Made by a program: the position numbers and the translations under genes. From Thermoplasmata archaeon (lineage in GTDB: Archaea; Thermoplasmatota; Thermoplasmata; Thermoplasmatales; Thermoplasmataceae), in the NCBI GenBank assembly GCA_021797355.1, contig JAJZZX010000002.1, positions 1-64,000 of the forward strand: a stretch of 64,000 nucleotides of DNA, given 5' to 3'. Positions 29,913 through 52,037 of this stretch are shown in pieces; position 1 is the first letter of the stretch, and the number at the start of each line of letters is the position of its first letter. Below the pieces are notes generated by a model. That model worked only from the letters and a program-made list of their open reading frames with translations, made no database searches and was not told the DNA's origin.

Positions 29913-29934
29913 AGACCTCATTTTTTGGTCTTCA
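29910..29934. terminator. Bidirectional terminator hairpin between korB and tricorn 1
   Basis: TGAAGACC (29910-29917) and GGTCTTCA (29927-29934) form an eight-base stem with a T-rich loop, spanning both convergent stop codons. It can serve transcripts from either side. Confidence 0.6.
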
Positions 29935-32900
29935 AAGACTTCATAATTTCTTCTATGGCTCTGTCCAGCTGTGGATCTCTTCCCTCAACATAATCCTCCG
30001 GCGTTGGGTCCACTTCTATTGTAGGATCTGTGCCATAATTCTCAACCCCGAATCCAACATCCTTGAAGCTGAATGAGAATTCAGGCTGAGTTACAATGGT
30101 ACCGTCAACGAGTGTGGAATCTGTATTGATTCCCACAACGCCGCCCCAGGTCCTTGTTCCTATAAGAGGCCCCAGCCCGAAAAGTTTCCATGAATGGCTG
30201 AAAATGTCACCGTCCGATCCTGCGAATTCGTTGGTCACGGCCACCATGGGCCCCTCAACAGAATATTCGGGATAAGGTACCTTGGGGCCCCTTCTCGGCT
30301 GATCAAAACCAATCCTTTTCCTCGACAGTTTTTCAAGCAGAAGTTGCGAAACATGGCCTCCGCCGTTAAATCTAACATCAACTATGAGGCCGTCGTAACC
30401 AGTTTCTTCTTCGAGAAGTCTGTGGAATTCGTTGAAGCCATTTGGCCCCATGTCTGGTATGTGTATGTAGCCAACCCTTCCACCGGTTCGGTCGTGGACA
30501 TACGCGCGGCGATCCTCGACCCAGTTCCTATACCTGATGTTCCTGTCATCAAGCAGAACGGGAACAGTTATGCTGAATTTCTCACCATTCCTGGCCAGAT
30601 CAATCCTCACATCCTCACCTGCATGATTCATGAGGGCCGAATTCGGGGGAGACATTCGGTCAACTGGAATGCCGTTGATGGCAATTATTTCATCCCCCTC
30701 GCGTACATCTGTTCCCGGAAGCAGAAGTGGCGATCTCTCAGCAGGGCTTGACCTGTCGCCCTGGTACAGCCGCGCAATCACGAATGCTTTTCCATTCCAA
30801 GTGAAGTCAGCACCCAGCCTCCCAACACTATATCCCTGTGCAGTGGTTGTTTCCCCTCCAATTTCATAGGCATGGGAGGTTCCAAGTTCTCCCTGCATCT
30901 CCCTTATGAGGTCGGAAAGGGCGAATCTGGTTGTTATCCTGGGGAGGAGCCTTTCATACTTCCTGTAGATGCCCTCCCAGAATTTTCCAAGTTTCTCTGG
31001 ATTCCAATAGGATTCGCGCATCCTTACCCACGTTTCCCTGAACATCTGCCTCCATTCCTCAGTTGGATTCACCTGTAGCTTAATTCTCTGTATGTCAATG
31101 CGTAAAGCCTTATTTCCATCAGCCGATGCAGGAAATACCAGATCAGTCTGCGGCAAGTTAACAAGGTAGAAGCTGCCCTGGGACTTGACCAGTATCCTGT
31201 TCATATCCATGGAGAGGCGAATATCCGACACTCCTGTTGCAACAGTAGAGTTCTTTCTTTTTTTCAGATCGTATGATTCAAAGATTCCAGAGCTTCTTTC
31301 AGCTGAGGACCAGAGATAATACTTCATACTTCCTTCAACCGGGAACTTGAGGGTGAAGAATCCATCCTTCCCAGCCCTTAAGTACTGGTAGTCTGCCACA
31401 TCCATTGGGAACGAGGAAGACCTTCCCAGAATGTCATCAAATGATATCTCAGCGTACTCGCCGCTGGCCATCTGTCCTGTTGCAGGTGCTGGAATCCTAT
31501 CACTCAAGGTAAGACAGTAAGGCTTTGCAGCCATGGGATAGCCAAGCTCGAAAACAATCTTGTCATAAACAGGATCCAGTTCTCTCTGGGACAGGTAGTA
31601 GAGATAGCGTCCACTCGGGTCGAAAGAGGGGCTGAAATCCCTGTATCCATGGGTTGTAACCCTGTGTGCCTGCTTATCCTTCATGTCAAATATGAAGATG
31701 GCAGCTTTGCTCCTGTTCTCCGGGAAACTGTATGCCAGATATCTGGATGTATGGTGCCAGGAGAAATCATCTATATGACCGAATTCAGATTTTGCCAGCG
31801 TAATTTTTGTTCCGGTTTCGATCTCCACAGCAATGAGTTCATATCTGCCGTTTGAAACAGCAAGGTATTTTCCATCTGGGCTTGGCTGAATTTTCCTGAT
31901 GATGCCAGCATCTAAGTCTATCCTCTTTAATGGCATTCCGGCATCATTGTACAGGTATATGGCATCCTCGCCTGTGGCGTCACTGATTCCCGCAATGGTT
32001 CCCGATCCAGGTATGAACGCAGCTGATCTTATGCGTCCTCCTGTTCTAGCTCCAAGTTCAATAACAGGACCCTTCTCCGCCACCACCGAAAAAGCATGGC
32101 CTCTTGATATGAACAACAAGAGGTCGCCATTGCTTGAAAGATTGAAATCAGTCATGAAATGGGACGGATCAACAAACCGTTTGTTGGTCTGGAGGCCTGA
32201 AAGGTTAAGATCAATTTCCATTTTTTCAGGTTCCGCACGGGAATCCTTGAGATAATAAAGGTCCCCTCCGGCATGGAATACTAAGGATTTTCCATCCGAT
32301 CTCACGTTTCTCGCATAATATTCTTCCAGCTTTGTATGGGCCTTGATGTCATTGCCTGAAATGTGGCAGGAATAGAGTTGGCCAATGCCATTGAAATCTG
32401 ACGTGAAAAACAACCGCCCACCAGAAAGGGCCACGGAAGTTATGTTGCCATCAAGATCCAGTATCTTCCTGAACTTCTGATTTCCCTCACTGGCCCAGAC
32501 TTTGCCTCTAAGGCCACCTCTGTAGTTCTTCCAGTTCGGGATGTCGAATGTATTTCTTCCAATAATAGCAAGATTGTTTCCGTACAGAATTGTTGTTGCA
32601 GGGCCAAGCTTAAGCGGATTCCAGTTTCCGGTAGACGGATCAAATTCATAGAGTTCCGATGCTCTTCCGAATGGCCCAAGTGCGTCAGTAGATATTATAA
32701 CATTCCCTTCCGCTGAAAAACCTGCCAAATCAAGTGAACGTGTTCCAAAGAATGTTATCTGCGTGGGGTATCCTCCTTCCACTGGTACACTGAATATTTC
32801 ATTGGAGGGCGTTTCTGTCCCTCTGAGAACTCTTATGAAAACTGTTTTCCCGTCCGGAGAAAGCCTGAGGTTAGTCAGTGACCCCATATTGGAAAGTATT

Positions 32901-33004
32901 CTTTTATTATCGCCGGTCTTAAGGTCATGCGTCCAAACTTCGTCGTCGGTGATAAAGGCGATCCTTTCCTTGTTTACGTCAGGGTATAAAATATAAGGTT
33001 TCAT
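29918..33004 (-). CDS. tri: Tricorn protease (paralogue 1)
   Basis: A giant cytosolic serine protease that trims oligopeptides from the proteasome. The 1028 residues follow the tricorn layout: six- and seven-bladed beta-propellers (to about 650), a helical core segment C1, a PDZ domain and core C2. By alignment with the T. acidophilum enzyme (Ser745, His746, Ser965, Asp966, Glu1023), the equivalents are about Ser710-His711 in GTSHAYE, Ser930-Asp931 in FAGSDGDIF and Glu988 in GVENYG. All catalytic positions are kept, so it should be active. It diverges from a second full-length tricorn gene. The F1-F3 aminopeptidase partners are not in the window. Confidence 0.96.
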   Translation of the reverse strand: MKPYILYPDVNKERIAFITDDEVWTHDLKTGDNKRILSNMGSLTNLRLSPDGKTVFIRVLRGTETPSNEIFSVPVEGGYPTQITFFGTRSLDLAGFSAEGNVIISTDALGPFGRASELYEFDPSTGNWNPLKLGPATTILYGNNLAIIGRNTFDIPNWKNYRGGLRGKVWASEGNQKFRKILDLDGNITSVALSGGRLFFTSDFNGIGQLYSCHISGNDIKAHTKLEEYYARNVRSDGKSLVFHAGGDLYYLKDSRAEPEKMEIDLNLSGLQTNKRFVDPSHFMTDFNLSSNGDLLLFISRGHAFSVVAEKGPVIELGARTGGRIRSAAFIPGSGTIAGISDATGEDAIYLYNDAGMPLKRIDLDAGIIRKIQPSPDGKYLAVSNGRYELIAVEIETGTKITLAKSEFGHIDDFSWHHTSRYLAYSFPENRSKAAIFIFDMKDKQAHRVTTHGYRDFSPSFDPSGRYLYYLSQRELDPVYDKIVFELGYPMAAKPYCLTLSDRIPAPATGQMASGEYAEISFDDILGRSSSFPMDVADYQYLRAGKDGFFTLKFPVEGSMKYYLWSSAERSSGIFESYDLKKRKNSTVATGVSDIRLSMDMNRILVKSQGSFYLVNLPQTDLVFPASADGNKALRIDIQRIKLQVNPTEEWRQMFRETWVRMRESYWNPEKLGKFWEGIYRKYERLLPRITTRFALSDLIREMQGELGTSHAYEIGGETTTAQGYSVGRLGADFTWNGKAFVIARLYQGDRSSPAERSPLLLPGTDVREGDEIIAINGIPVDRMSPPNSALMNHAGEDVRIDLARNGEKFSITVPVLLDDRNIRYRNWVEDRRAYVHDRTGGRVGYIHIPDMGPNGFNEFHRLLEEETGYDGLIVDVRFNGGGHVSQLLLEKLSRKRIGFDQPRRGPKVPYPEYSVEGPMVAVTNEFAGSDGDIFSHSWKLFGLGPLIGTRTWGGVVGINTDSTLVDGTIVTQPEFSFSFKDVGFGVENYGTDPTIEVDPTPEDYVEGRDPQLDRAIEEIMKSLKTKK

Positions 33005-33106: not shown

Positions 33107-36100
33107 ATGGACGCCTACATATCAGCACCAGATATAAGGAATGGAAAAATCAGCTTCGTTGCAAATGATTCTTTGTGGATAATGGACTTGGAAGAGAGGA
33201 AGCCAAGGATCATCGCATCAGGAATGGGAATTATTACCAATGGCAGATTCTCTCCGGACGGCAAATGGATAGTTTTCAGAGCCATGTCAGGGAATGATGC
33301 TGGCATCGCTGACCTCTTTCTAGCCTCAACCTCAGGTTCAGAAGTTAGGAGGCTTACGTATTTTGGTGGCAAAAGCACAAGCCGGAGGATGTACACAGAC
33401 ATAGCAGGGTGGCTTGACAGCACTACGGTAATAGCCTCCACTGATGCCCTCTCTCCATTCATGGCAATGACAGAACTTTACTCTATCTCCATAGACATTG
33501 GCATATATGCACCAATGAAGCTCGGACCAGCTGCGCACATAATTTTTGATGGAAACTCAGTATATCTGGGCAGAAACACCTGGGACATGCTTCACTGGAA
33601 AGGATACCGAGGCGGAACAAGGGGCAAGATATGGAAAGGCTCACTTGACGGGGAGTTCAGCAAATTCGTTGAGCTAGAGACCCACATATCCAGTCCCGCA
33701 AAATGTGGCGATCGCATATTTTTCATTACCGACAGGGATGGGACGGGACAGATATACTCGGTGAGCACCGCTGGCGGAGACATGAAGGTTCACACATCTT
33801 TCAGTGAGCTCTACCCCAGAAATCTCTCATCAGACGGAAAGAGAATAGTTTTCACAAGGGGCGGGAGGCTGTACATGCTGAATGCCGATACAGGAGAATG
33901 TAGTGATCTTACCCCGTCATTCGGTATGGCATTCCAGAGCACTATGGAGAAGCTTGTCAAAGATAGTAAATTCGAAGAAGATATTGATCTGTCAAGGAGC
34001 GGTTCGTCATTCATAGAGGTATACAGGGGATCAGGAACGATTACTGGCATAGATGATTCCCCAATTATCAAGATACCGGCATCATGTGGCCGAGTAAGGC
34101 TTGCTAGATTTCTTGGAAACGAATCTGTGCTGTTTACGGGCGATCCAGAAAACAGGGAGGAGATTTTCAAATTTTCCTACGTGTCCCAGAAGCTTCAGAG
34201 ATTTGATCCGCATGTGGGCAGCATAGAGAATATTGTGCCTTCTCCAGATGGCCAGCTAGCTGCGCTGACAAATGGAGATTTCCATCTTTTCATCTTAGAT
34301 CTGCGTACTTGGGAGATAAAAGACATCGATCAAAACACCCAGGGCCAGATTTACGACATTTCTTGGTCTCCCGACTCCACAAAGATTGCCTATGTTTATC
34401 CAAAAATACGGCAGTTTCTTGGGGGGCATGAATTCTCAACAGTCAAGATTTACGATCTAAAGGCAAAACAGTTTGCCGAGATAACTACTGACAACTCCAG
34501 GGATCATTCTCCGTCCTTCAGCCCGGACGGCAAGATTCTCTACTATCTTTCAGACAGGATCCTCGATCCTGTTTCAGACAGGTTCGTGTTTGATTTTGGT
34601 TTCCAGATGATAACCAAGCCATTTGCTGTTTATCTTGATACATTTGTGCCACCCTATCTGGAAAAAATTCCAGAAGAATTGCTTCCGGAGACATACAGGC
34701 CGGTAAAGGGAAACGATCTTAAGCTGACTAGCACACCAACACAGGTGAGGTCAGGCAACCTCTTCAAACTGCGCGCTGTTACGGGTGCACTGATTTATCT
34801 CAGATATGAGGTAGAAGGAGGTCTGAAATACTACAACACCGGGGAGGTGCCATCAGCCACTTTGGTAGCACACAACATAGACAGCGGCGAGGACACTGAA
34901 TTATGCAGGGATACAATTGATTACAGGCTTTCGGAAATCGGAAACAAGGTTCATATACTTGTCAGGGCAAAGGATAACAGCCTTCGCAAGTTTGAAATCA
35001 CACTAAGCCAGGATGTCCGGAAGATCAAGATACTGCGTGATATTTCAATTGATACAGGAAGGATAAGCTGCACAATAGATCCGGTGAAGGAATGGAAACA
35101 GATGTTTCTTGAAGCGTGGCGCCTGGCCAGAGACAACTTCTGGAATGCCGAAAAAGCGGCGAATCTTGCGGATAGCATACTCAAGAGGTATTTGCCTCTT
35201 CTCAACCTCGTAACATCAAGATATGAACTTTCCCAGTTAATCCGGGAGATGCAGGGAGAATTCAGGACATCCCACTCCTACGAAATGGGAGGAGACCTAA
35301 CGGATGCAGAATTTGTTGCCTCAGCGAAGCTTGGAGCGGATTTTGAATACAGGGATGGAAAATTCCTCGTATCTGAATTATACATGGGTGATCCGTCAAA
35401 CGAAAACGAAAAATCACCCCTTCTCATGGCAGGATTTGCAAATATTGGGGACGAAGTTCTGCGAATCAACGGGGTGACTGTTGACAAAACCACACCACCC
35501 TGGAAGGCCCTGCTGAACATGCAGGGAAGAATAGTTAACATTGAGTTGGGCAGGCAGGGAGAGGTTAAAGGTCTGCCAGTCAGGGCAATGAAGGATGACA
35601 GATTCCTCAGATACAGGGCCTGGGTTGAAAAAAACCGGGAAACGGTGCACAGGATTAGCAAGGGAAGGATCGGTTATGTGCACATTCCAGACATGGGGGT
35701 AAACGGATTCAATGAATTTTCAAGACTTTACGGCCGTGAATCAACATATGACGGGCTGATAGTTGATGTTAGATACAATGGCGGGGGATCAGTTTCACAG
35801 ATAATATTGGAAAAACTCTCCCGAATAAGGCTAGGCTATGATCAGCCGAGGCATGGCGGCGTCCATTCATATCCAGCTGATTCAGTAAATGGCCCCCTGC
35901 TTGCCATTACAAACGAAAATGCCGGATCTGACGGTGATATCTTCAGCCATGCCTTCAAACTACTTGGGCTTGGCCCACTGGTGGGAACGAGGACTTGGGG
36001 AGGGGTAGTAGGAATAAATCCCAGAAGAAAGCTTGCTGACGGAACAACAGTAACGCAGCCTGAGTTTGCTCTGTGGTTCAAGGATGTAAAGTTCGGTATA

Positions 36101-36250
36101 GAAAACTACGGAACCGATCCCACCGACGTCGTGGAATACCCGCCCAGCAGCTACAGGCAAGGTAAGGATCCGCAGCTCGAATATGCCGTAAGGAAAATAC
36201 TGGAAATTACGAATACAGGAGAAAGAAGGGTAGATTTCAGCAGTCCCTGA
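33107..36250 (+). CDS. tri: Tricorn protease (paralogue 2)
   Basis: A second complete tricorn, 1047 residues, with the same order of two propellers, C1, PDZ and C2. Catalytic equivalents are Ser722-His723 (RTSHSYE), Ser941-Asp942 (NAGSDGDIF) and Glu999 (GIENYG), each offset by a constant 23-24 from T. acidophilum numbering. The propellers differ clearly from paralogue 1, whereas the catalytic cores are similar, so the copies may admit different peptides. An A/T-rich AACAATATACATC about 25-30 bases before the ATG is the likely TATA box. The peptide ABC importer operon starts about 240 bases downstream on the same strand. Confidence 0.95.
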   Translation: MDAYISAPDIRNGKISFVANDSLWIMDLEERKPRIIASGMGIITNGRFSPDGKWIVFRAMSGNDAGIADLFLASTSGSEVRRLTYFGGKSTSRRMYTDIAGWLDSTTVIASTDALSPFMAMTELYSISIDIGIYAPMKLGPAAHIIFDGNSVYLGRNTWDMLHWKGYRGGTRGKIWKGSLDGEFSKFVELETHISSPAKCGDRIFFITDRDGTGQIYSVSTAGGDMKVHTSFSELYPRNLSSDGKRIVFTRGGRLYMLNADTGECSDLTPSFGMAFQSTMEKLVKDSKFEEDIDLSRSGSSFIEVYRGSGTITGIDDSPIIKIPASCGRVRLARFLGNESVLFTGDPENREEIFKFSYVSQKLQRFDPHVGSIENIVPSPDGQLAALTNGDFHLFILDLRTWEIKDIDQNTQGQIYDISWSPDSTKIAYVYPKIRQFLGGHEFSTVKIYDLKAKQFAEITTDNSRDHSPSFSPDGKILYYLSDRILDPVSDRFVFDFGFQMITKPFAVYLDTFVPPYLEKIPEELLPETYRPVKGNDLKLTSTPTQVRSGNLFKLRAVTGALIYLRYEVEGGLKYYNTGEVPSATLVAHNIDSGEDTELCRDTIDYRLSEIGNKVHILVRAKDNSLRKFEITLSQDVRKIKILRDISIDTGRISCTIDPVKEWKQMFLEAWRLARDNFWNAEKAANLADSILKRYLPLLNLVTSRYELSQLIREMQGEFRTSHSYEMGGDLTDAEFVASAKLGADFEYRDGKFLVSELYMGDPSNENEKSPLLMAGFANIGDEVLRINGVTVDKTTPPWKALLNMQGRIVNIELGRQGEVKGLPVRAMKDDRFLRYRAWVEKNRETVHRISKGRIGYVHIPDMGVNGFNEFSRLYGRESTYDGLIVDVRYNGGGSVSQIILEKLSRIRLGYDQPRHGGVHSYPADSVNGPLLAITNENAGSDGDIFSHAFKLLGLGPLVGTRTWGGVVGINPRRKLADGTTVTQPEFALWFKDVKFGIENYGTDPTDVVEYPPSSYRQGKDPQLEYAVRKILEITNTGERRVDFSSP

Positions 36251-36491: not shown

Positions 36492-39400
36492 TTGAATGTA
36501 AAACTTGTGGCAATAATGGCCATAGTTGTGGTTTTCGCAATGGTTGGATTGGCAGTCGCTGACTCAAACGCTGTTGGCGCAGTTCCAGCCGTTCAGAGCT
36601 CTATGGGATCATCAGTGGTAAGCGGAGCATCATCCGCCACTCCATGGACGTATCCAACCAGCACTATGCAGGAGCCGGGATACACAAATGGTACTTATAT
36701 AATGGCAGCAACGAACAACGTTGAGCACCTCAATGTGTATCTTGCTACAGATGTGTACAGTTTTTACCTGCTTGATGAGATTTATGATTCAGCTACAAAT
36801 CTCCTGCCTAATGAAACAATCAGCCCGTGGCTGGCAACGAGCTGGTATGAAACTCCAGTCACATCCTCAAACGTAGGCAGTTTTCTGGGCATGGTAAATT
36901 CTACTACGGCCAAGACCTATGATCCATTAAACGGCAAACTTATGCCTGTCAGCTATGTCTATACAGTTAACATAAGACCAGGAGTTCAGTGGACAGACTG
37001 GACTTCTGCAAATGCCGGATCAACATACACATACAGCAATGTCACCACATTCAACGGACCAAACGGAAATCCTCATACCATAAAGTACAGATTTAGCCCA
37101 ATGACAATGAAGACATATTATGTTCAGGCAGCAGATTTCATACTCTCGTGGAAGATTTTGCAGTCTTCTCAAGACTATAGCGGTTCATTCGCAAATATAG
37201 TAAATGTCGTTCCAGTGAATAATACTACAGTTGATTTTTACCTGTCAAGCCAGTCTGCTACCTTTGTAACTTACACTCTGGAGACACCCATACTTCCATA
37301 CCATATATGGGTGAATCATGACTACTCCACGGTTCCTGGGGTCTGGAACTACACAGCGACACCCCCCAATCCAACCGGAGGATATAACAACTGGAATGTA
37401 AGTTACAATCCTGCTACGGGATATGCTCCCCAGCTAGTAGGCACTGGCCCATTCATGATGAACGGTGGATATGGAATGCCAAAGGGTCAGTGGATCTTTG
37501 ACCAGTACTGGAAGCTGTATGTTAATCCGCACTATTTCGTTCAGTATACCAAGTCTCTGAGACAGTGGACGCCTAAATTCTTTGAGCTTTATGTTCCAGA
37601 ATATCTTTCACTGTCTGCAGCTGTCATAGCACTGTCTCTCAATCAGGTATACCAGATTGAAGGCGGAGTTACTCCAACATTCATTCCGACCATAGCCACA
37701 ATTCCTCACACCTACATATACAAGAAACCAACCACTGGATACGGATACATACAGCTTAACTCCTTTGGACCGAGATCGGAAGCAAACGCATCTGCTGGTC
37801 TGTATCCTGGCATGAGTGGGCCGTTTACACCAGCAAAAATTGCTCCTCCACTGAACATAACCTCAGTCAGGCAAGCTCTCAATTACGCAGTTAATAAGGT
37901 CTACCTAAACTCAGTGGTGGACGAGGGTTATGGAATTCCTGGCACATCTGTTGTTCCTGATTCTGACAGCGTATGGCAGAACCACAGCCTTCCGGCATAT
38001 TCGTATAATCCCGCCAAAGCCATGCAGCTGCTCAATGATACTCCAGGAATGAAATATATCAATGGGGAGTATTACTACCATAGATCCCAATTCACCATGG
38101 ACATCCAGATAACATCTGCAGCCTCTAATCCTCTGGGTGTGGAGGGAGCCCTTCTTATACAGAAGTGGTGGGATTCCATAGGCGTCCACACAACTGTGAC
38201 ACAGGAGGCTTTCAGCACAATAGTGTCTAATCTTCTTGACTACGGATACAGCGCAATTGAACTTGGGATTTCTGGAATAGTTGGAGACCCAACGGGCGAT
38301 TTTGTAACATTCTACACTCCAGCTGGATATGGCACCGGGTTCTATCTCGGTCCCTTTACCCCCATGAACGGAACAACATTCCCTGGTCTTACAACAACGC
38401 ACAATGGTACTTACTATGACAACCTGATGACACAGTTGTACAATACAATGAATACAAATACAACCCTATCTGTGAGGATAGCAGCTGGAAACGAGATACA
38501 GGGAATAGCTGCCTACGAATCAACAATGATAAATGTGGGTTACGGAATTGACCTGTTCCCAATTGACAACTCCACATTCGTAAATACCACACATGACACC
38601 CTGAGCCAGACCGGCTTTGAATACTGGAACTTCATGTCCGTTCACCTGAGAAAGGCTGTTACAGTAACTCCACCTTCAAAAACGCCAGAACAGCTCCAGG
38701 TTGGTGTCATAAGCCCCAAGCAGGTATACACAAATGGCGAGTATGGAAACATAACTGTACAGGTTAGGAACCAGTATGGTGCACCCGTTTCTGGTGCCAA
38801 TGTTACATTGGGCGTTAACCCGTCAGGAGCCCTTCTTAATATAACAAGCCTAAATGGTGTCACAAACTCTGCCGGTATTTACACACTTGAGTTCAGGGTT
38901 CTGGAAAACCAGCCGCTCGTTTATACTTCCGACTACCTTGGGGAAATTAACATATCGGCCGCAGCATCCATGTCGCTGGCTCCAGCAGGTACCGTGGTGC
39001 CGGGGCTTGGCTATACATTCATAGATGTCCAGCCTGAGCCTGTGGCCTACAAAGTACTGAAGATGCCTGCACTCAATTCAACAAATAAATGGCAGCCGAT
39101 GCAGATAGAGGTGTATAATCCACTTAATGGAAAGGCTATTTCCGGATACAGCCTGACGCTGCAGGCAGCAGCTGGTCTTCTGAATATGACTAACGCATCA
39201 TACAGTCCAGCTTCCGTTTCCATGATATCGGGAAATCCTCTGAACCAGCTATACACACCTATAAACTATGGTTACATGACCTCCAACAAGACCTCAACTC
39301 GTAACGCTCCTGAGGCAGTTGCTGTGACTCCTAACGGAACATTCGCAGTTGTGGCGAATAATGCAACTGACACTGTACAGCTAATGAACCTCACGGACAT

Positions 39401-41480
39401 GAAACTAGGCAAAACTTTCGCAGTTGGCACCGGGCCTGATTCAGTGGCAGTGGCACAAATGACCTCAAATAAAACGTCTGTATGGGCGTTCGTAGCCAAT
39501 TATGGGTCTGAAAATGTAACCGCTGTGAACCTGACATCCGGCAAAACATTAAACTTTGCGGTTGGAGTGCATCCTACTGATGTTTACCTGATGATGAACG
39601 GCGTAAACGATAGCTTCGCTTTCGTGACAAACGGTGGATCAGGTAACCTTACGGTTATCAACCTCACCACATACGTTAATGCATCGTTGTCTAGTGGTAA
39701 AAACATAAACGTCAAGGTAGGTTCAGATCCTGTGTCGTTCACGCTTTACGGCAATTATGCACTGGTATCTAACTATGTAAGTGACAACATAACAGTGCTT
39801 AATCTGACGAGACTGTCATCAAATACCATAAAGTCTAATGGCTACATCTCACTTGGCTCACAAAAAGGTCCATATGGCATGCAGCTCGTAGGTTCAGACC
39901 TATATGTTGCAGATTCAGGCACAAGCAATGTATCTGTACTGCAGCTGGTCAATCTGTCACATAACAACTCACTTGCGGCATCGGGATACGTCAACTACAG
40001 CTGGTACACCAATATATCCGTGGGTAAGGACCCCACACAGCTTTCCCTTGCAGGATCAGGTGCATTCCTTCTTGTCTCTGATACGGGAAGCAGCATGCTT
40101 TCTGCAATAGACATGGCAGATATAAGTTCATATTACACCTATTACACCATGAATACGGTTGTCGCCAACATCAGCACTGCAGCCAGCCCAATGGGCATGT
40201 TCTCCCTCTCGGGAACAACACTTGTGGCGGATCACTCCGGCTATGTTAGCATAGTAAATGGAACAGGGTCCGTCATATATCAGAACTACAGCCTCTGGCA
40301 AGTAAGTGGAACCACAGCTTCAAATGGAACATTGACTGTTAACCTGAAGTTCGACCCGGCGATGCTGAGGACAGACACTGCACTTATGGGCAATGATCTG
40401 GAAAGCTATGTGTTCCTGGGCAACTATGCGGCTGGCGCTCCTGTATCAGGCGCTGCCCCGTACATGACTCTGGGCCAGATAACATCGGCTACAAACCCCA
40501 ACGGATTTGGCACATTGCAGCCGGTTGAGCTCCCAATGCAGGTATCAGTTGGGACAGCACCGTATACAATCGAGATGACAGTTTATAAGAACTTCATATC
40601 GTCACCGGATGGAACCGCACAGGTTAATGTGACAGTCCTGAATGCCACTGGGTCTCCAGTACCCAATTTCCAGCTGGATCTGGTGAGTCAGAACGCACTT
40701 GGTGCAAACAGAGGCTATTTCAGCGGTAACGGTCCCGTGATACAGGTCACTGATCCGAACTCGCTGTTTGGAAGTCTGGAATTGCCTGGCATACAGCTGA
40801 CTACGAATATGTTTGGACAGGCTACGGCCACTTTCAATGCAGGTCTCTACACTGTTGATACAAGCAATGGGAACTTCATAGGATACAGTCCAATGTCGTT
40901 CACTGATCCATACCTGCAGCCAGCTGACGACTTTGAGATAAGTGCTGTAGGCGTAACAGGAATGGCAGTTACACAGCTTTCATTGAATTCATCCCAGGCC
41001 GTTAACAATGTAGCCCCGTCTCCAATGGCTGCAGCATATTTCCAGAGTGTGCCTTCAGTTGATGGCACTGTGGTTCTGTCCAGTGGATCATCATATACAG
41101 TGTACGTCAATTCGACATACAACAGTCCTGCCGGTACATCAGCAGCAAATGTGCCGTTCACCATATCAGCTACCTATGGTACCCTCTCGACAACTTCAAA
41201 CACAACGAATTCAAATGGCACCTATAAACTGACATACACGGCCCCAACGGTTTCAACGGTAACTGAGGTGACAATAACTGTGTCTGCAGGTGGTGTGACT
41301 TATGTGGAACACGTCTATATTACCCCGTCAGTGCCAGCACCTAACAATACTCTGTACTACGCACTCATAGGAGTGTTCGCAGCTCTGTTCGTGGTGTTTG
41401 CGGCCCTATATGCCATGGGAAGAAGAAAGGTGTTGCCGCCGCCACCAGGAGGAAATGAACCACCAAAAACAGGAAACTGA
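36492..41480 (+). CDS. Very large peptide-binding protein of an ABC importer (SBP_bac_5) with propeller and Ig-like domains
   Basis: A 1662-residue surface protein. A signal peptide (NVKLVAIMAIVVVFAMVGLA) is followed by a family 5 solute-binding domain at about 50-720, with segments such as NYAVNKVYLNSVV and YNPAKAMQLLNDTPG typical of DppA/OppA. An Ig-like domain covers about 740-830 (GNITVQVRNQYGAPVSGANVTL) and a YVTN-like beta-propeller about 930-1260, with repeated units like PEAVAVTPNGTFAVVANN. Further Ig-like domains and a C-terminal membrane helix (YYALIGVFAALFVVFAALYA) end in a Pro-rich tail. It is thus anchored in the membrane. The start is TTG; the next ATG would lose the charged n-region. 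Permeases and ATPase follow in order. Confidence 0.88.
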   Translation: MNVKLVAIMAIVVVFAMVGLAVADSNAVGAVPAVQSSMGSSVVSGASSATPWTYPTSTMQEPGYTNGTYIMAATNNVEHLNVYLATDVYSFYLLDEIYDSATNLLPNETISPWLATSWYETPVTSSNVGSFLGMVNSTTAKTYDPLNGKLMPVSYVYTVNIRPGVQWTDWTSANAGSTYTYSNVTTFNGPNGNPHTIKYRFSPMTMKTYYVQAADFILSWKILQSSQDYSGSFANIVNVVPVNNTTVDFYLSSQSATFVTYTLETPILPYHIWVNHDYSTVPGVWNYTATPPNPTGGYNNWNVSYNPATGYAPQLVGTGPFMMNGGYGMPKGQWIFDQYWKLYVNPHYFVQYTKSLRQWTPKFFELYVPEYLSLSAAVIALSLNQVYQIEGGVTPTFIPTIATIPHTYIYKKPTTGYGYIQLNSFGPRSEANASAGLYPGMSGPFTPAKIAPPLNITSVRQALNYAVNKVYLNSVVDEGYGIPGTSVVPDSDSVWQNHSLPAYSYNPAKAMQLLNDTPGMKYINGEYYYHRSQFTMDIQITSAASNPLGVEGALLIQKWWDSIGVHTTVTQEAFSTIVSNLLDYGYSAIELGISGIVGDPTGDFVTFYTPAGYGTGFYLGPFTPMNGTTFPGLTTTHNGTYYDNLMTQLYNTMNTNTTLSVRIAAGNEIQGIAAYESTMINVGYGIDLFPIDNSTFVNTTHDTLSQTGFEYWNFMSVHLRKAVTVTPPSKTPEQLQVGVISPKQVYTNGEYGNITVQVRNQYGAPVSGANVTLGVNPSGALLNITSLNGVTNSAGIYTLEFRVLENQPLVYTSDYLGEINISAAASMSLAPAGTVVPGLGYTFIDVQPEPVAYKVLKMPALNSTNKWQPMQIEVYNPLNGKAISGYSLTLQAAAGLLNMTNASYSPASVSMISGNPLNQLYTPINYGYMTSNKTSTRNAPEAVAVTPNGTFAVVANNATDTVQLMNLTDMKLGKTFAVGTGPDSVAVAQMTSNKTSVWAFVANYGSENVTAVNLTSGKTLNFAVGVHPTDVYLMMNGVNDSFAFVTNGGSGNLTVINLTTYVNASLSSGKNINVKVGSDPVSFTLYGNYALVSNYVSDNITVLNLTRLSSNTIKSNGYISLGSQKGPYGMQLVGSDLYVADSGTSNVSVLQLVNLSHNNSLAASGYVNYSWYTNISVGKDPTQLSLAGSGAFLLVSDTGSSMLSAIDMADISSYYTYYTMNTVVANISTAASPMGMFSLSGTTLVADHSGYVSIVNGTGSVIYQNYSLWQVSGTTASNGTLTVNLKFDPAMLRTDTALMGNDLESYVFLGNYAAGAPVSGAAPYMTLGQITSATNPNGFGTLQPVELPMQVSVGTAPYTIEMTVYKNFISSPDGTAQVNVTVLNATGSPVPNFQLDLVSQNALGANRGYFSGNGPVIQVTDPNSLFGSLELPGIQLTTNMFGQATATFNAGLYTVDTSNGNFIGYSPMSFTDPYLQPADDFEISAVGVTGMAVTQLSLNSSQAVNNVAPSPMAAAYFQSVPSVDGTVVLSSGSSYTVYVNSTYNSPAGTSAANVPFTISATYGTLSTTSNTTNSNGTYKLTYTAPTVSTVTEVTITVSAGGVTYVEHVYITPSVPAPNNTLYYALIGVFAALFVVFAALYAMGRRKVLPPPPGGNEPPKTGN

Positions 41481-41614: not shown

Positions 41615-42592
41615 ATGAATCCTTATCTCATTGCAAGGAAGATAGTGCAGGATGTCATTTTAGTTGTTCTGATGGCGGTTGTCATCTTTGTCGTGTACAG
41701 GCTAATGCCTGGAAATCCTGCACAGCTTCTCTTATTCGGTGCAAAGAAAGCTGGCCTTTCCTCTGGTAAACTGCAGGCCGTTGAGGCACAACTGGGGCTC
41801 GCAGGAGGGAAATGGAACTTCGCCAACTTTCTGATATACATGAGGGACATGTTCACCTTTCATTTCGGATTTGATTATTTCGAAGGTCTTTCAGTATGGG
41901 ACATTATTAAGCAGGCTCTACCATACACCCTTCTGCTTTTTGGAACTGCCGCCGTTGTATCCTTCCTGATTGGCATACCGCTTGGTATAATCACAACATG
42001 GTTCAGGGGTACCAAAAAAGAAAGTGCTCTGGTATCAACATCAAACATACTGAACGCCATACCGTTCTTTGTTCTTGCAATAGTTCTGATCATATACCTT
42101 ACAGCAAAGTACCCTGTTTTTCCCGTCAGAGCTGATTTTCCCATAGGCTGGATAGGTCAACCTTCGCACTGGGGTGGCGTCCTGTATTATATGTTTTTGC
42201 CAACTGCAGCACTTGTAATAATAGAAGCTGCAGGGCATCTGCTTACTACTAGGGCAGCAATGGTCGGTACCCTTGGCGAGGATTTCATAACAACTGCCCG
42301 TGCAAAAGGGGTCAGTGAAGGCAACATAATGTTTCACCATGCCGCAAGAAATGCAATGATACCCATAAGCACTAGAATGGCACTGGAATTTGCGCTATTG
42401 ATGAGTGGTGCAGTCATAGTTGAAATCATATTCTCATGGCCAGGAATGGGGCACCTTTTGTATGAAGCTACCCTTGAACTTGATTACCCACTGGCTGAGG
42501 GAGCTCTTTTTGTAATCTCGCTTGTCACGATCATAACTTACTCCTTCGTGGACTTCATCCATGCATGGCTGGACCCAAGGATTAAACTGTAG
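41615..42592 (+). CDS. Peptide ABC transporter permease, DppB/OppB family
   Basis: A 325-residue inner-membrane permease with six hydrophobic segments. The N-terminus has VYRLMPGNPAQLL, the usual DppB hallmark after TM1. The EAA loop that docks on the ATPase is TARAKGVSEGNIMFHHAARNA at about 228-248. The C-terminus FIHAWLDPRIKL is typical. It pairs with the DppC-type permease that starts eight bases downstream, preceded by AGGTGA. Confidence 0.94.
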   Translation: MNPYLIARKIVQDVILVVLMAVVIFVVYRLMPGNPAQLLLFGAKKAGLSSGKLQAVEAQLGLAGGKWNFANFLIYMRDMFTFHFGFDYFEGLSVWDIIKQALPYTLLLFGTAAVVSFLIGIPLGIITTWFRGTKKESALVSTSNILNAIPFFVLAIVLIIYLTAKYPVFPVRADFPIGWIGQPSHWGGVLYYMFLPTAALVIIEAAGHLLTTRAAMVGTLGEDFITTARAKGVSEGNIMFHHAARNAMIPISTRMALEFALLMSGAVIVEIIFSWPGMGHLLYEATLELDYPLAEGALFVISLVTIITYSFVDFIHAWLDPRIKL

Positions 42593-42600
42593 GTGAACAG

Positions 42601-44859
42601 ATGGTTGCAGAAAACAGGAAAACTGGAGATCTTAGGGAACTGAGAAAAAAGAGGATTCAATTCAGGATATATCAGTTCAGGAAACAGTGGAGCATATTTT
42701 ACAGATCCGGCTATGGAAAAATAGGATTCTATATAATCGTGATCTTTGCTATCATAGCTCTCTTGTCCCCCGTACTTGAAGTTCACCATGATGCCCTCTC
42801 ATACGTTGCTCCATCCATCGATACAACCGCGCCAACCATATTAACGCACTCTAATGTGGGAAATCTAGCCATTAACAAAGACATGTCATCATCTGTTGCC
42901 GCTTCAACCACAGATGATGTTGGCTCCAACATGGTTTACACCGTTACATCTTCAGGCGCTGTCTACGGCATCTCTCTTGGTTCGGCAAGGTCGATCCCCC
43001 TTAACCATAGGGTCAACCTTTTCAATATTACTGTGCCGCCCGGGCAGTCTGTGCTGGGCATAAGGGTATTTCCGCTTGAGGGCATATCTTTTTCCGGGCA
43101 GATTCAAATGACCAATTACGTCATGGTTGCAACATCGGGTGGCTTAATAACTGTGGCAGGACTCAGCTGGACTGGCGGATCTTCCGGTGTTGGCAGTCTT
43201 GTTGCATCCCAGCCACAGACATATGATACTGGTCTTAGCCTGGCAAGTTTGCCTATATCGAGCTCTTTTCCCGTTGACACATCAGTTATTCCCAGTATTC
43301 CTTACCAAAATTCTGAGCTTTCGGGAATACCGGGTGATTATGGAAGCATATTTGCGCTTGGATATAACACAACAGGAACATATCTGGTAAAACTTTCAGA
43401 CGAGCCTCTTGCTCTCCTGTGGTCTGAGAAGTTAACGAACTCTTCAGCAATAAACTCTGTTTCATATCTGGGATCCTATTATCAGGATCAAAGCGCAATA
43501 CACCAATCCCTGATAATTACGGCTGGAAATACAATTCAGGAGTACTATGCATCCAACGGGACTTTAGCCTGGTCAAAGACTATGCCATACACCTTTACTG
43601 GTCAGTACACTATACCCTCTGCCTATCAGTCTTCATTTAGTTCCTACAATTCCATCTTTGAAGTGATGAGCGACGGATCAGCGTATTATGTTTATGGATT
43701 TTACCAAGCGAATGGAACAGATTTTGAAGTCTTCAACAGCCCAAATATGATAACGACAATCTCAGCTTCACAGGGTGGTAGTGGCCTGCCATCATCACTA
43801 CTTGTCATAAGTAATTACACTGGGTATGTTATCAGTGCACCAGGAGTTATAGCAGGCACAGTAACCCTCAGCAGTTCATATGGCGATTATAAATCTGCAC
43901 CTGTTTTCATACCCAGTCTGGGGACGTATATAATAACCTCACAGAAAGGAATGATATATTCCCTTTCAGCATCATTGGGAAAAAATCCATTCACATGGGC
44001 TACATATTACAATCCAGGCAGCAATGGCAATATTTCAGCTCCCGTGCTTCTTCTGGATGCCTCCAGTGGGGAGGAAGCAATATCTTTTGCAGCATCCAAC
44101 GGCAACGTTATGGTATATTCTGCAAATGGGGTGACCAGGAATCCAATGCCTCCTGAACTTCACACACCATCCGGCACAATGCTCCTCCTTGGCACAAACA
44201 CCGAGGGTAACGACGTGTGGAGCCAGTTCATCGCAAGCTTCCCGCCAGATTGGATAGTCGGGATCAGTGTTGGTCTCATTGGAATAGCAATAGCACTTGT
44301 TCTTGGAATGATAATAGGTTATTACAGAGGTTTCGTGTCAGTAGCTCTGGATACAGTGACGCTTGTCATATACCTTATTCCCGGTTTGGCGCTCCTTATA
44401 GCACTGACATCGGTTCTTAGCCCCTCATTTTTCAACATAATATGGATACTTAGTTTTCTAAGCTGGCCTTTCACAACATTCACAATCCTTGGGATAATCA
44501 GAAGTATCAAACAGAGGGCTTTTGTTGAAGCTGCAAAGGTCTCAGGAGCCGGAACAATGCAGATACTCAGAAGGCACATGCTCCCAAACATAACTCCTTT
44601 GCTAATCTACCTCACCGCACTCAATGTTAGCGGAGCTGTAGGAGGAATTGCGACTCTGCAGTTCCTTGGGGTTGCTCCCCTGACAATTCTTACATGGGGG
44701 GCTATGCTGAATCCCCTGGAAAATAACTTCTATCTGGCAGCTTCTGCCCCGTGGTGGGTTATTCCGCCAACAGTTGCCCTGACCCTTTTCATAATGGCAT
44801 TCATATTCCTCTCCAGAGGCGTGGACGAGGTCGTCAACCCAAGAATCAGGAGAAGATAA
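42601..44859 (+). CDS. Peptide ABC transporter permease, DppC/OppC family, with large ectodomain insertion
   Basis: A 752-residue protein where DppC proteins are usually about 280-320. TM1 (GFYIIVIFAIIALLSPVL) is at about 41-58; the remaining membrane segments begin only near 545 (IVGISVGLIGIAIALVLG). The EAA loop EAAKVSGAGTMQILRRHMLPN follows, and the end is SRGVDEVVNPRIRRR. The roughly 480 residues between are extracytoplasmic and Ser/Gly/Tyr-rich. They include strand-turn units such as MVYTVTSSGAVYGISLG and ISFAASNGNVMVYSANG, resembling PQQ-type propeller blades. Normal DppC proteins have only a short loop there. The insertion may receive peptides from the giant binding protein. Confidence 0.92.
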   Translation: MVAENRKTGDLRELRKKRIQFRIYQFRKQWSIFYRSGYGKIGFYIIVIFAIIALLSPVLEVHHDALSYVAPSIDTTAPTILTHSNVGNLAINKDMSSSVAASTTDDVGSNMVYTVTSSGAVYGISLGSARSIPLNHRVNLFNITVPPGQSVLGIRVFPLEGISFSGQIQMTNYVMVATSGGLITVAGLSWTGGSSGVGSLVASQPQTYDTGLSLASLPISSSFPVDTSVIPSIPYQNSELSGIPGDYGSIFALGYNTTGTYLVKLSDEPLALLWSEKLTNSSAINSVSYLGSYYQDQSAIHQSLIITAGNTIQEYYASNGTLAWSKTMPYTFTGQYTIPSAYQSSFSSYNSIFEVMSDGSAYYVYGFYQANGTDFEVFNSPNMITTISASQGGSGLPSSLLVISNYTGYVISAPGVIAGTVTLSSSYGDYKSAPVFIPSLGTYIITSQKGMIYSLSASLGKNPFTWATYYNPGSNGNISAPVLLLDASSGEEAISFAASNGNVMVYSANGVTRNPMPPELHTPSGTMLLLGTNTEGNDVWSQFIASFPPDWIVGISVGLIGIAIALVLGMIIGYYRGFVSVALDTVTLVIYLIPGLALLIALTSVLSPSFFNIIWILSFLSWPFTTFTILGIIRSIKQRAFVEAAKVSGAGTMQILRRHMLPNITPLLIYLTALNVSGAVGGIATLQFLGVAPLTILTWGAMLNPLENNFYLAASAPWWVIPPTVALTLFIMAFIFLSRGVDEVVNPRIRRR

Positions 44860-44860
44860 G

Positions 44861-47080
44861 ATGATCGAGGTACAGGAAAAGCAGGAAATTAAGAAGGCAG
44901 GAACCCTACTGAGTGTAAATGACTTTTCAGTCACATTTGATACCTATGAAGGGAGGCTCAAGGCACTTGAAGACGTTAACCTGAGCCTGAACAATGGAGA
45001 ATCCCTCGGAATAATAGGCGAGAGCGGATCAGGAAAGACAACTCTGGCTACTGCCATTATGGGCCTTATTTCTGACAATGCCGAAATAGGAGGCAACATT
45101 CAGTTCAATGGAGATGTCATAATAGACAGTGAACATTTCGGAAAAGCCTACAGGAAACTTAAGCGAAAGGAGAGAAAGATACTTTCAGAAAAGCTGATTT
45201 CAATGAGATGGAAAGACATCTCAATGGTCTTCCAGGGCTCCATGAATGCATTCAATCCGGCTTATACCATAGAAAAGCAGATAGGTGAGGTTTTCCGCAT
45301 TCACACCAATCTTAATGATAAGGAGATTGAGCAGCGTTCAATCGAGGTCATTCAATCGGCAGGGCTTAACAGATCAGCTTTAAAAGCCTATCCTCATGAG
45401 CTGAGCGGAGGAATGAAGCAGAGGGCAGTCATAGCAATGGCACTGGCACTTTCCCCGAAACTCGTGATTGCGGATGAACCAACAACAGGCCTTGACGTCA
45501 TCACTCAGGCAAAGATAATATCCGAACTGAAAAGGCTAAGAGGGACAGCCATAAACTCCATGATAGTGATATCGCACGATGTGGGTGTAGTATCGCAGCT
45601 CGCTGACAGGGTTGTTGTGCTTTATTCCGGGCGGATAATGGAAATTGGGCCAACATGGGATGTCTATAAAAAATCTCTCAATCCATATACTAGAGCATTA
45701 CTCAGCAGCTACCCTTCAATAGACAGCACTAAATCGCACATAGAAGGCATTCCAGGGGCACTGCCCGATCCTCTTTCAGAGAGGCCAGGATGTTATTTTG
45801 CCCCAAGATGTAAGTATGCTGACAACCTTTGCAGCACTGTAGTGCCTGAACTGAAGGAAGTTGCGCCAGGCAGGTTCAGCAGATGCCATTATTCAGAAAA
45901 ATTTCTCGATGGTGAATTTGTTGAGGAATCGAAACCGCATTCATCAGAGAAACTTGGTTACAGGCCTAGGGAGCCCATAATAAAGGCTGATCAACTAACA
46001 GAGTACTTCAGCCTAAGGACAAAAACCTATGGCCAGCTCTATGGAAAGGAAGAGGCTACAAGAATTGTCAGGGCTGTTGATCATATTGATATGGAAATAA
46101 GAAGGGGCGAGATATTTGGCGTCGTGGGTGAAAGCGGTTCTGGCAAGACCACACTGGGAAGAGTAATCCTCAAGCTCCTGGAGCCAACTTCTGGAAAGGT
46201 CTTATTTTATGCGGTGGGGAACAAGCTCAGTTATAATAGAGATACAGATACCCATGATCTGCCGGAACCCGTCGATTCAAAGGAATATATGGAAATAGAT
46301 GTTTCTGGGGTCCACGAACGTTCAGAAGAAATGAAAATCTTCAGGCGGCAGACTCAGCTTATTTTCCAGGACCCTTACGATTCCATCGATCCAAAGCAGA
46401 CGGTGTTTAGCATAGTTGAGGAACCTATTATTGCGCACAGGGTAACAAATGATCCACTGAAGATATCTGACATGGTAAATGAAGTGCTAGGGGTGGTGCG
46501 CCTCAATCCTCCAGAAAGTTACACAGACAGGTATCCCCATGAACTCTCTGGTGGGGAAAGGCAGAGGGTGGCTGCTGCCAGGGCACTGGTACTCCGCCCT
46601 GAATTTCTTGTCGCAGACGAACCCATTTCAATGCTCGACGTCTCTCTTAGGGCAGGCTTCATGAATCTGATTCTCGATCTGCGCAACAGATTCGGAATTA
46701 CTGTAATGTTCATCACACATGATCTTGCATCTGCCCGTTACCTGTGCGACAGAATAATGGTTATGTATCTGGGTGTTAGTGTGGAGAGCGGAGAATCAGA
46801 GCAGGTAATGAGGAATCCACTTCATCCTTACACGAAAGCCCTAATACGGGCAGTACCCAAACCGAATCCAAATTGGGATCCATCCAGGATAGATATCAAG
46901 GGGGAGATAGGCAATGCAATAGATGTCCCCAAAGGTTGCCGCTTCTTCAGGAGGTGCCCATACGCAAGGGAGATATGCGAGACAACACCTCCTCCAAGGA
47001 AGGAACCGGAGAAGGATCACTGGTATTTGTGCCACTTTACTCAGGATGAATTGAACACCTTCAGGAGCTTTAACCAGTAA
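44861..47080 (+). CDS. Peptide ABC transporter ATPase, fused DppD-DppF
   Basis: A 739-residue cytoplasmic subunit with two complete nucleotide-binding domains. Domain 1: Walker A GESGSGKTT (53-61), signature ELSGGMKQR, Walker B LVIADEPTTGLD, then the OppD-type C-terminal cysteine region (GCYFAPRCKYADNLC). Domain 2 from about 375: Walker A GESGSGKTT, signature ELSGGERQR, Walker B FLVADEPISMLD and a second Cys motif (GCRFFRRCPYAREIC). The Cys motifs are typical of peptide and nickel importer ATPases and can bind an iron-sulfur cluster. A single fused chain replaces the usual pair. It begins one base after the DppC stop. Confidence 0.95.
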   Translation: MIEVQEKQEIKKAGTLLSVNDFSVTFDTYEGRLKALEDVNLSLNNGESLGIIGESGSGKTTLATAIMGLISDNAEIGGNIQFNGDVIIDSEHFGKAYRKLKRKERKILSEKLISMRWKDISMVFQGSMNAFNPAYTIEKQIGEVFRIHTNLNDKEIEQRSIEVIQSAGLNRSALKAYPHELSGGMKQRAVIAMALALSPKLVIADEPTTGLDVITQAKIISELKRLRGTAINSMIVISHDVGVVSQLADRVVVLYSGRIMEIGPTWDVYKKSLNPYTRALLSSYPSIDSTKSHIEGIPGALPDPLSERPGCYFAPRCKYADNLCSTVVPELKEVAPGRFSRCHYSEKFLDGEFVEESKPHSSEKLGYRPREPIIKADQLTEYFSLRTKTYGQLYGKEEATRIVRAVDHIDMEIRRGEIFGVVGESGSGKTTLGRVILKLLEPTSGKVLFYAVGNKLSYNRDTDTHDLPEPVDSKEYMEIDVSGVHERSEEMKIFRRQTQLIFQDPYDSIDPKQTVFSIVEEPIIAHRVTNDPLKISDMVNEVLGVVRLNPPESYTDRYPHELSGGERQRVAAARALVLRPEFLVADEPISMLDVSLRAGFMNLILDLRNRFGITVMFITHDLASARYLCDRIMVMYLGVSVESGESEQVMRNPLHPYTKALIRAVPKPNPNWDPSRIDIKGEIGNAIDVPKGCRFFRRCPYAREICETTPPPRKEPEKDHWYLCHFTQDELNTFRSFNQ

Positions 47081-47099: not shown

Positions 47100-47486
47100 A
47101 TGTGGGAGAATAACGATAATGAGCCGGAACAGGCAGTAAGGAGGGCTGTAGCAGAGGCTAGGATAAAGTATATCAAACCTCCGCTCATAGCGTTGCTTTT
47201 GCTTCTGGCATTGCCACTTCTTTCCGCAATAGCATACGGATTTGGGCCTTACCTGACATACATGCCAGATATAGTATTCATAGCGGCAATAGTGGTGATA
47301 TTCTTTGGAGCTTGGTATGATTTTGGTGCTAATGCATACCTTAAGGATTTGAAAGATCTCTACCACAAGACACCCACAGATGCAGATATGGCATACATTC
47401 AGAAGCAGCAGTTCATTCTAACAGTTCTTTATATTCTAATAGGCCTGATTTACATAGCTTCTGCAGTAGTCATTTATCTGATCTAG
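47100..47486 (+). CDS. Small membrane protein downstream of the importer ATPase
   Basis: A 128-residue protein with a charged N-terminus (EQAVRRAVAEARIKYIKPP) and three or four hydrophobic segments (PPLIALLLLLALPLLSAIAYG; DIVFIAAIVVIFFGAWY; ILTVLYILIGLIYIASAVVI). No family is recognised. It starts about 20 bases after the ATPase stop on the same strand, so it belongs to the importer operon. A different small membrane protein occupies the same place behind the second, decayed Opp gene set (53384), which suggests a recurrent accessory role. Confidence 0.68.
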   Translation: MWENNDNEPEQAVRRAVAEARIKYIKPPLIALLLLLALPLLSAIAYGFGPYLTYMPDIVFIAAIVVIFFGAWYDFGANAYLKDLKDLYHKTPTDADMAYIQKQQFILTVLYILIGLIYIASAVVIYLI

Positions 47487-47632: not shown

Positions 47633-48859
47633 TGCTGTAAAATTGAAAAGGTCCTGCACAATTCGGATTTGAAGAGGCGAAAATATGCAGGACCAGTTAG
47701 TTGTAGTGAAAGAGGTAATAAGTATTTTCCTGAAAGACCGGAAGGAAGGAAAGAGGCAGCTAATAGAATGGTTTCTCAATGACGTCATGGATGAGGAGGC
47801 AAGAGTGCAGCTCGCATCCATGCCATACGAGAGAACAGAAGAAAGGAAAGGACACAGGAACGGAACGAGAACAAGGAAACTGAAGACAGTCGACGGTGCA
47901 CTGGAACTGAAGAAACCACAGATAAGGGAGTTTCCCTTCAGGACCGCCGTCTTTGACCGCTATTCCAGGGTTGAGAAGGCTCTTGATTCAGTTATACTGG
48001 AATCATACATCCAGGGTGTGTCCACAAGGAATGTCAAGAGCATAGTTGAGAGCCTGGATATGGAGAACGTATCCGCATCATACGTGTCAACCCTGGCCTC
48101 TGAACTTGATTCAAGAGTGAGGGAATTCCTTGAGAGGCCCATTGAATCACCAATGAAATTCATCTACATAGATGCAACATACTTCAAGGTGCGTGAAAAT
48201 GGAAAGTACAGGAGTAGGGCACTCTATGTGTGCATAGGCATCAACCCGGAGGGGAGGAGGGAGATACTTTCAGCCAGGCTCTATGATTCCGAGACAGAGA
48301 TTGAATGGGAATCATTCTTTGATGATCTGAAGAGCAGGGGTCTCACAGGTGTGGAGCTTGTGATATCTGACGGGCATAAGGGGATACAGGAATCCGTGAC
48401 AAAATCCTTCCCTGGCGCAGCATGGCAGTACTGCCATGTCCATTTCATGCGCAATCTGATGAAGCTGATTCCGAAGAAGAAGCAGTCGTCTGTCATGCAG
48501 ATAATAAAGCAGGCACTTGAGAATGAATCACTTGTGTCAGAGGCACAGGACACACTTGTTAAAGAGGGTCTCCATAAAGTATCCGAGATGTTCGAGAGAT
48601 GGTACCCGTCACTGTACAATTACAAGGCGTACAGTGAATCATGCCAGAGGAGGCTGAGAACAACAAATGTGCTGGAGAGGCCTAACCTGGAATTCAAGAG
48701 GAGAACGAAAAAGATAGGAGCATTTCCATCAGAACAGTCTCTTCTGAGACTTGTTGTGACAATAATGATGGACATAAATGAAGAGTGGATAACAGGGAGA
48801 AGATATATGAACATGGAGGAGAATTAGGGAATGTACAGGATCTTTTCGAAATTACAGCA
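47633..48859 (+). mobile_element. IS256-family insertion sequence
   Basis: The outer ends are imperfect inverted repeats of about 30 bases: left end starts TGCTGTAAAATTGAAAAGG and the right end, read inward, starts TGCTGTAATTTCGAAAAGA. Both continue with TCCTG-ACA. Between them lies one intact transposase gene. No clean target duplication is visible. The element sits inside a relic end of an IS5-type element. Confidence 0.82.
47685..48827 (+). CDS. IS256-family (mutator-type) transposase
   Basis: A 380-residue DDE transposase. The order of motifs is typical: GHRNGTRTRKLKT near the N-terminus, the first Asp in FIYIDATYFKV, the second in ELVISDGHKGI, followed by WQYCHVHFMRNL, and the terminal Glu in TTNVLERPN, then EFKRRTKKIGAFPS. 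Length and motif set look intact, so the element may still be mobile. It lies downstream of the importer operon in the same orientation. Confidence 0.95.
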   Translation: MQDQLVVVKEVISIFLKDRKEGKRQLIEWFLNDVMDEEARVQLASMPYERTEERKGHRNGTRTRKLKTVDGALELKKPQIREFPFRTAVFDRYSRVEKALDSVILESYIQGVSTRNVKSIVESLDMENVSASYVSTLASELDSRVREFLERPIESPMKFIYIDATYFKVRENGKYRSRALYVCIGINPEGRREILSARLYDSETEIEWESFFDDLKSRGLTGVELVISDGHKGIQESVTKSFPGAAWQYCHVHFMRNLMKLIPKKKQSSVMQIIKQALENESLVSEAQDTLVKEGLHKVSEMFERWYPSLYNYKAYSESCQRRLRTTNVLERPNLEFKRRTKKIGAFPSEQSLLRLVVTIMMDINEEWITGRRYMNMEEN

Positions 48860-51768: not shown

Positions 51769-52037
51769 ATATATTCTTCAACCCAAAACATCCATATACG
51801 ACGGGCTTGCTAGCTTCCATTCCGAGAGAATTTGGAAAGGAACGGCGGAATATGAAATTGAACACAATTCCAGGAAGCGTGCCAAATCTCATAACTCCCC
51901 CGTCAGGCTGCAGGTTCCATCCCAGGTGCAAGTTTGCCATGGAGGTATGCAGTGAAAAGAAACCGAAGCTTATAGAGATTGAAGGCGGTCACAAGGTAGC
52001 TTGTTTTCTTTATTCAAGTGAAACGGAGGGGAACTGA
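51769..52037 (+). pseudogene. oppD 3' remnant (ABC ATPase tail)
   Basis: A frame of about 88 residues starting at the IS border reads IFFNPKHPYTTGLLASIP, then GSVPNLITPPSGCRFHPRCK and FAMEVC. This is the C-terminal oligopeptide-ATPase domain; the nucleotide-binding domain is missing. The stop overlaps the start of the following oppF (TGATG), the normal operon arrangement. The rest of this second Opp gene set (binding protein, permeases) is not present. Confidence 0.82.

Follow-up and report, generated by a model that had tools for sequence, protein, structure and literature searches.

A predicted BamB-like beta-propeller in the TM1-TM2 loop of a DppC-type ABC importer permease from Thermoplasmata

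Peptide ABC importers are viewed as pairing minimal permeases with a binding protein (SBP) that serves them. Permeases with extra domains are known from GlnPQ and OpuA, which carry a fused SBP, and from the maltose importer, where the MalF-P2 domain has a fold unrelated to a propeller and occupies a different loop from the one considered here. MalF-P2 (residues 91-271) contacts the binding protein MalE (PMC3150292). In the Escherichia coli dipeptide importer, the TM1-TM2 loop of DppC is a periplasmic region, and the TM1-TM2 region of DppB carries a scoop that contacts the SBP (PMC12136057). For Ferroplasma acidiphilum, a genome paper reports at least 7 oligopeptide/peptide transporters, and a propeller domain is not mentioned in the passages searched (PMC5473848). 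Permease and propeller are both of known kinds; for their class-wide combination, a search of open-access full texts yielded no description of a propeller in OppC/DppC, although one may have been published elsewhere.

We analyzed a stretch of 64,000 nucleotides from a Thermoplasmata archaeon (assembly GCA_021797355.1, contig JAJZZX010000002.1, positions 1 to 64,000), hereafter the window. The gene at 42601..44859 on the forward strand starts with ATG and encodes, in one unbroken frame without an internal stop, a protein of 752 amino acids which, judged by its sequence, is an ABC importer permease of the DppC/OppC type. Residues 566-751 match PF00528 (BPD_transp_1) with 76.2 bits against a curated cut-off of 26.4, and the EAA coupling loop, FVEAAKVSGAGTMQILRRHMLPN at residues 641-663, contains EAAKVSGAG, in line with the view of the initial annotation that the membrane parts and the EAA loop are normal. 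The gene comprises an OppC_N-like N-terminus with TM1 (aa 1-70, 42601..42810), an insertion predicted to form an extracytoplasmic BamB/PQQ-like beta-propeller of about eight blades (aa 71-515, 42811..44145) and the BPD_transp_1 membrane domain with the EAA loop (aa 516-752, 44146..44856), all on the forward strand. The GC contents of these parts (0.40, 0.45 and 0.48, respectively, for a window value of 0.456) give no sign of a foreign patch.

The OppC_N profile was matched by 36 of the 44 relatives analyzed; the window protein itself had none at E 0.1, although the alignment to E. coli DppC does cover its TM1. When about 435 residues (roughly 76-509) were cut from the protein before alignment, residues 28-316 of the remaining sequence aligned continuously to residues 21-299 of E. 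coli DppC (8z1v_B, E 9e-24). Because this insertion-free remainder aligns end to end, the extra residues sit cleanly in the TM1-TM2 loop. The location between TM1 and TM2 proposed in the initial annotation therefore stands, whereas the length given there, about 480 residues (60-540), has to be revised to about 445 residues (71-515). None of the named NCBIfam equivalogs (Opp4C, DppC and others) scored above its cut-off, the best being Opp4C with 127 versus 350 bits, and for this reason we do not file the protein under a named substrate class. The other DppC-type permeases of the same genome are ordinary, with open frames of about 296-309 aa, implying that the trait is specific to this system rather than common to all permeases of the organism.

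The fold of the insertion was assessed with an AlphaFold2 model of DppC built from a 44-row alignment. The model had a mean pLDDT of 85.4 and a pTM of 0.74, and ten-residue blocks within the insertion mostly scored 85-95; about 30 strands were found there, arranged as four-stranded blades. A Foldseek search with the model linked the membrane part to OppC/DppC and the insertion to BamB and WD40-type propellers. By VIA-align, the top match of the insertion was BamB (Z 30.7, 2.7 Å over 331 residues, model range 71-509) at 14% identity, with the propellers of ODA16, Sqt1, Rsa4 and YxaL following within about 1-2 Z units. Profile searches with the window DppC sequence returned no match to any propeller profile, PQQ_2 included, and none to dehydrogenase profiles. 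Among its 44 relatives, the PQQ_2 ('BamB') profile was matched by 12 with E values no higher than 0.1 (lowest 8e-5) and the Beta-prop_ACSF4 profile by 7; in a wider sample, 5 of 18 insertions matched PQQ_2. Taken together, the insertion is strongly predicted to be a BamB/PQQ-like beta-propeller, which agrees with the PQQ-type blades that had been read from the sequence earlier, and the number of strands and the structural matches suggest about eight blades. A match of residues 331-414 to B-Raf constructs (E 0.003) was discounted and does not indicate a transporter relationship.

Structure prediction thus gave a folded propeller and no disordered linker. The Ser/Gly-rich sequence might have pointed to an assembly chimera or a random fusion bridged by such a linker, but we reject this explanation, the likelihood of which is close to nil: the model is folded, the insertion is under purifying selection, and the same architecture recurs in dozens of assemblies made independently of one another, among them the complete Ferroplasma acidarmanus Fer1 chromosome.

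Other Thermoplasmata DppC proteins carry the same insertion across the order and the class, and the initial annotation was right that the protein is not a misassembled fusion. In the Thermoplasmatales, an insertion of 421-553 aa is kept in every intact single-locus homologue inspected, covering six families. Class-wide, the matches listed in a full-length search include near full-length ones with an open frame of >700 aa for at least 61 of the 300 genomes sampled, from 14 families. A census with an insertion-only profile (19 of 392) was rejected as a measure of prevalence, as its sensitivity was too low and known members of the same family were missed. Named hosts of a long DppC include F. acidarmanus Fer1 (complete genome), a Cuniculiplasma, I-plasma and Ca. 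Sysuiplasma superficiale, and one genus outside the class Thermoplasmata has a long DppC as well. At the profile level, insertions of different families can be aligned with one another: comparison with the profiles of other orders gave a probability of 99% (E 3e-21, 433 columns) for family f3 and of 92% (E 7e-7, 219 columns) for the group of the window. A tblastn search of plasmids with an insertion from another order returned no match.

A tree was calculated from the membrane domain alone (52 rows, unrooted). All intact long DppC proteins fall on one side of a branch (support 96/87), and the only 'short' row among them is an I-plasma gene that is divided into two ORFs by a stop. This grouping of the long proteins on one side of a supported branch favours a single ancient gain of the propeller. 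The propeller may also have been gained twice, considering that a very long branch parts the subgroup of the window from the other long DppC proteins and that the tree is unrooted. The long DppC of I-plasma (L078 and L027) is cut inside the propeller by the stop, so that the gene is a pseudogene unless the split stems from faulty assembly; a similar split is seen in L104. Two further DppC proteins of 1071-1106 aa (L185:656-3973 (-) and L186:1020-4232 (-)) have a Kelch propeller added to PQQ-like sequence. DppC paralogues of intermediate length (L179:896-2656 (-) and L181:1023-2426 (+)) have N-terminal PKD domains before OppC_N and lie outside the propeller clade.

The insertion has a dN/dS of about 0.03-0.11 (close species pairs, unsaturated), compared with about 0.006-0.03 for the membrane domain (close species pairs), and identity to the nearest congener is 51% for the insertion and 98% for the membrane domain. 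Its dN/dS indicates that the insertion is maintained under purifying selection; it is a maintained, folded part evolving faster than the channel. In the window, it is Ser/Thr/Tyr/Gly-rich and low in charge (D+E 4.9%, K+R 2.5%), as expected of an acid-exposed surface, and the propeller could accordingly be imagined to cap or stabilise the permease passively at a hot, acidic surface, with no role towards the substrate. We consider such a cap very unlikely, as the same insertion has ordinary charge in other orders (D+E about 11%) and the ordinary DppC-type paralogues of the same genome do without it. The SBP of the same operon is similarly low in charge (D+E 5.2%, K+R 3.3%). Since the low-charge composition is common to this SBP but absent from the insertions of other orders, it probably reflects the acidic surface environment and not the function of the domain. 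The insertion contains 7 N-glycosylation sequons, about as many as its composition predicts.

The permease gene belongs to an operon with the order SBP-DppB-DppC-DppDF-small membrane protein, in which the genes are separated by 134, 8, 1 and 19 bases. The forward-strand genes around DppC encode the cognate SBP (36492..41480, 1662 aa), the DppB permease (41615..42592, 325 aa), a fused DppD-DppF ATPase (44861..47080, 739 aa) and a small protein of 128 aa with about three TM segments (47100..47486), which matched no Pfam family and closes the operon at its 3' end in close relatives. The SBP was recognized by its SBP_bac_5 (family-5 SBP) domain at aa 110-613, which is followed by Ig-like domains, a 7-bladed-type propeller of the lactonase/YncE type (about aa 930-1256) and more Ig-like domains; the tail model was moderate (pLDDT 70, pTM 0.45) and served to establish domain order only. 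A C-terminal TM helix (aa 1619-1643) indicates that the SBP is membrane-anchored rather than diffusing. The operon with the anchored SBP is conserved in close relatives. The propeller within the SBP is an optional cassette, with residues of about 920-1250 skipped in many orthologues, unlike the DppC propeller, which none of the intact homologues examined in this clade lacks. The TM1-TM2 region of DppB in the window is ordinary in length. Several genomes of families f3 and f6 encode a DppB that also has an insertion, of 140-240 aa, in this scoop loop; genes of this kind are L044:10752-12170 (-), L046:10611-12011 (-), L048:2118-3524 (+) and L052:9411-11150 (-).

The suggestion of the initial annotation that the ectodomain could replace a diffusing binding protein did not hold, given that the SBP gene lies directly upstream, the SBP is anchored and the TM1-TM2 region of DppB is ordinary. 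With a cognate anchored SBP encoded and a normal DppB loop retained, the propeller is no substitute for the binding protein; it may receive peptides directly, but then in an assisting role.

Two tricorn protease genes immediately precede the importer operon, one adjoining it (33107..36250, forward strand) and a second, divergent one (29918..33004, reverse strand). A tricorn gene was found within the fetched flanks of the long-DppC operon at 15 of 48 named loci, including that of F. acidarmanus. The proximity of tricorn genes to the importer operon supports oligopeptides as its cargo. Just 3' of the operon, the window contains a Mutator/IS256-type transposase gene (47685-48827 (+)). Further downstream, fragments of another pair of Opp-type ATPase genes (oligo_HPY and a partial ABC_tran, 51747-53418 (+)) adjoin a DDE transposase gene (50785-51711 (-)) and probably represent a decayed importer locus. 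A 983-aa surface-type protein with a CARDB domain is encoded at 58602-61553 (+).

We propose that the DppC propeller serves as a platform on which the anchored SBP docks and is positioned, and assign this reading a probability of about 0.5. Docking is preferred because the SBP is present and anchored and the DppB loop is kept, because it is at TM1-TM2 loops that additional domains accumulate in this importer family, and because the best-matching fold, BamB, is a known protein-protein scaffold. The scoop-loop insertions of DppB look as if domains get added on the SBP-facing side. On this model, a BamB/PQQ-like propeller would have been inserted into the TM1-TM2 loop of DppC early in Thermoplasmata evolution, and would be placed beside the mouth of the translocation path on the extracytoplasmic face. 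There it could hold or orient the long, multidomain, anchored SBP in such a way that the peptide-loaded lobes reach DppB/DppC; the peptide would then be imported and passed to cytosolic peptidases, e.g. the adjacent tricorn proteases. Several observations count against docking. In a partial correlation of evolutionary distances, shared descent left no further propeller-SBP signal (partial r 0.10, p 0.17). Divergence of the propeller is much more rapid than that of the membrane domain, whereas a docking face might be tightly conserved, and an SBP gene adjoining the operon was not found in f3 relatives of the L044/L046/L058 type, suggesting that the partner may not always be fixed.

The same rapid divergence could reflect substrate diversity if the propeller were a peptide receptor or vestibule, binding peptides at its top face or in its central channel and feeding them to the pore, which would add a further site of capture to the SBP. 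The location at the extracytoplasmic loop and the fact that propellers often bind ligands would fit such a role, which we nevertheless regard as unlikely considering that a dedicated SBP is encoded, that the DppB TM1-TM2 region is kept and that the propeller is closest in fold to BamB and WD40-type scaffolds, which are not known as peptide transporters. That the propeller is, throughout the class, a covalently attached second receptor or loading vestibule which captures or sorts peptides, with the SBP only assisting, seems improbable to us. Alternatively, the propeller could be a surface scaffold that does not dock the SBP and tethers other partners, such as extracellular proteases, surface proteins or neighbouring transporters, into a peptide-foraging complex. 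Other DppC-type proteins of the class bear Kelch or PKD domains, which are typical of surface interaction, the SBP has Ig-like and propeller modules, and beta-propeller surface proteins have been described in the same order, Thermoplasmatales, and in ARMAN archaea (PMC10354927, PMC5498576). However, apart from the subunits of the importer, the small membrane protein and, in many cases, tricorn, the long DppC has no consistently linked partner gene, and we consider a scaffold of this kind unlikely.

Thermoplasmata, including the cultured Ferroplasma, have a DppC with a predicted built-in propeller, to which a second (Kelch) propeller is sometimes added. If the propeller docks the SBP, it would be a new way for long, surface-anchored archaeal SBPs to deliver their cargo to the pore; should it bind peptides, the division of labour given in textbooks would be incomplete. 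In either case, the domain is clearly delimited and open to testing, and its importer is often encoded next to a tricorn protease.

In comparison with E. coli DppC and M. tuberculosis OppC/DppC (8z1v, 8j5q, 8wd9), the window protein is alike in membrane fold, sequence and EAA loop, as well as in the DppB-DppC pairing and the operon with SBP and ATPases. The bacterial DppC/OppC proteins differ in having a short TM1-TM2 loop where the window DppC has a propeller of about 445 residues, and DppD and DppF are fused here. The E. coli DppB scoop (DppABCDF) is also an extracytoplasmic TM1-TM2 segment of an importer permease, but it is a short helix-loop-helix in DppB, whereas the insertion described here is a whole domain in DppC. 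BamB, the 8-bladed PQQ-like propeller of the BAM complex, shares the predicted fold, with PQQ_2 matches in a minority of relatives; it is a stand-alone lipoprotein in the periplasm, part of an outer-membrane machine, while the window propeller is inserted in a permease. In GlnPQ and OpuA the extra domain is the SBP itself, in contrast to the window system, where the extra domain is a propeller and the SBP is separate and anchored. MalF-P2, the nearest analogue in function, is likewise a folded domain within the permease of an ABC importer and lies outside the cytoplasm, although it has about 180 rather than about 445 residues and belongs to a different subfamily. By analogy, the DppC propeller most likely works like MalF-P2 with an unrelated fold, through a contact with the SBP that we infer here.
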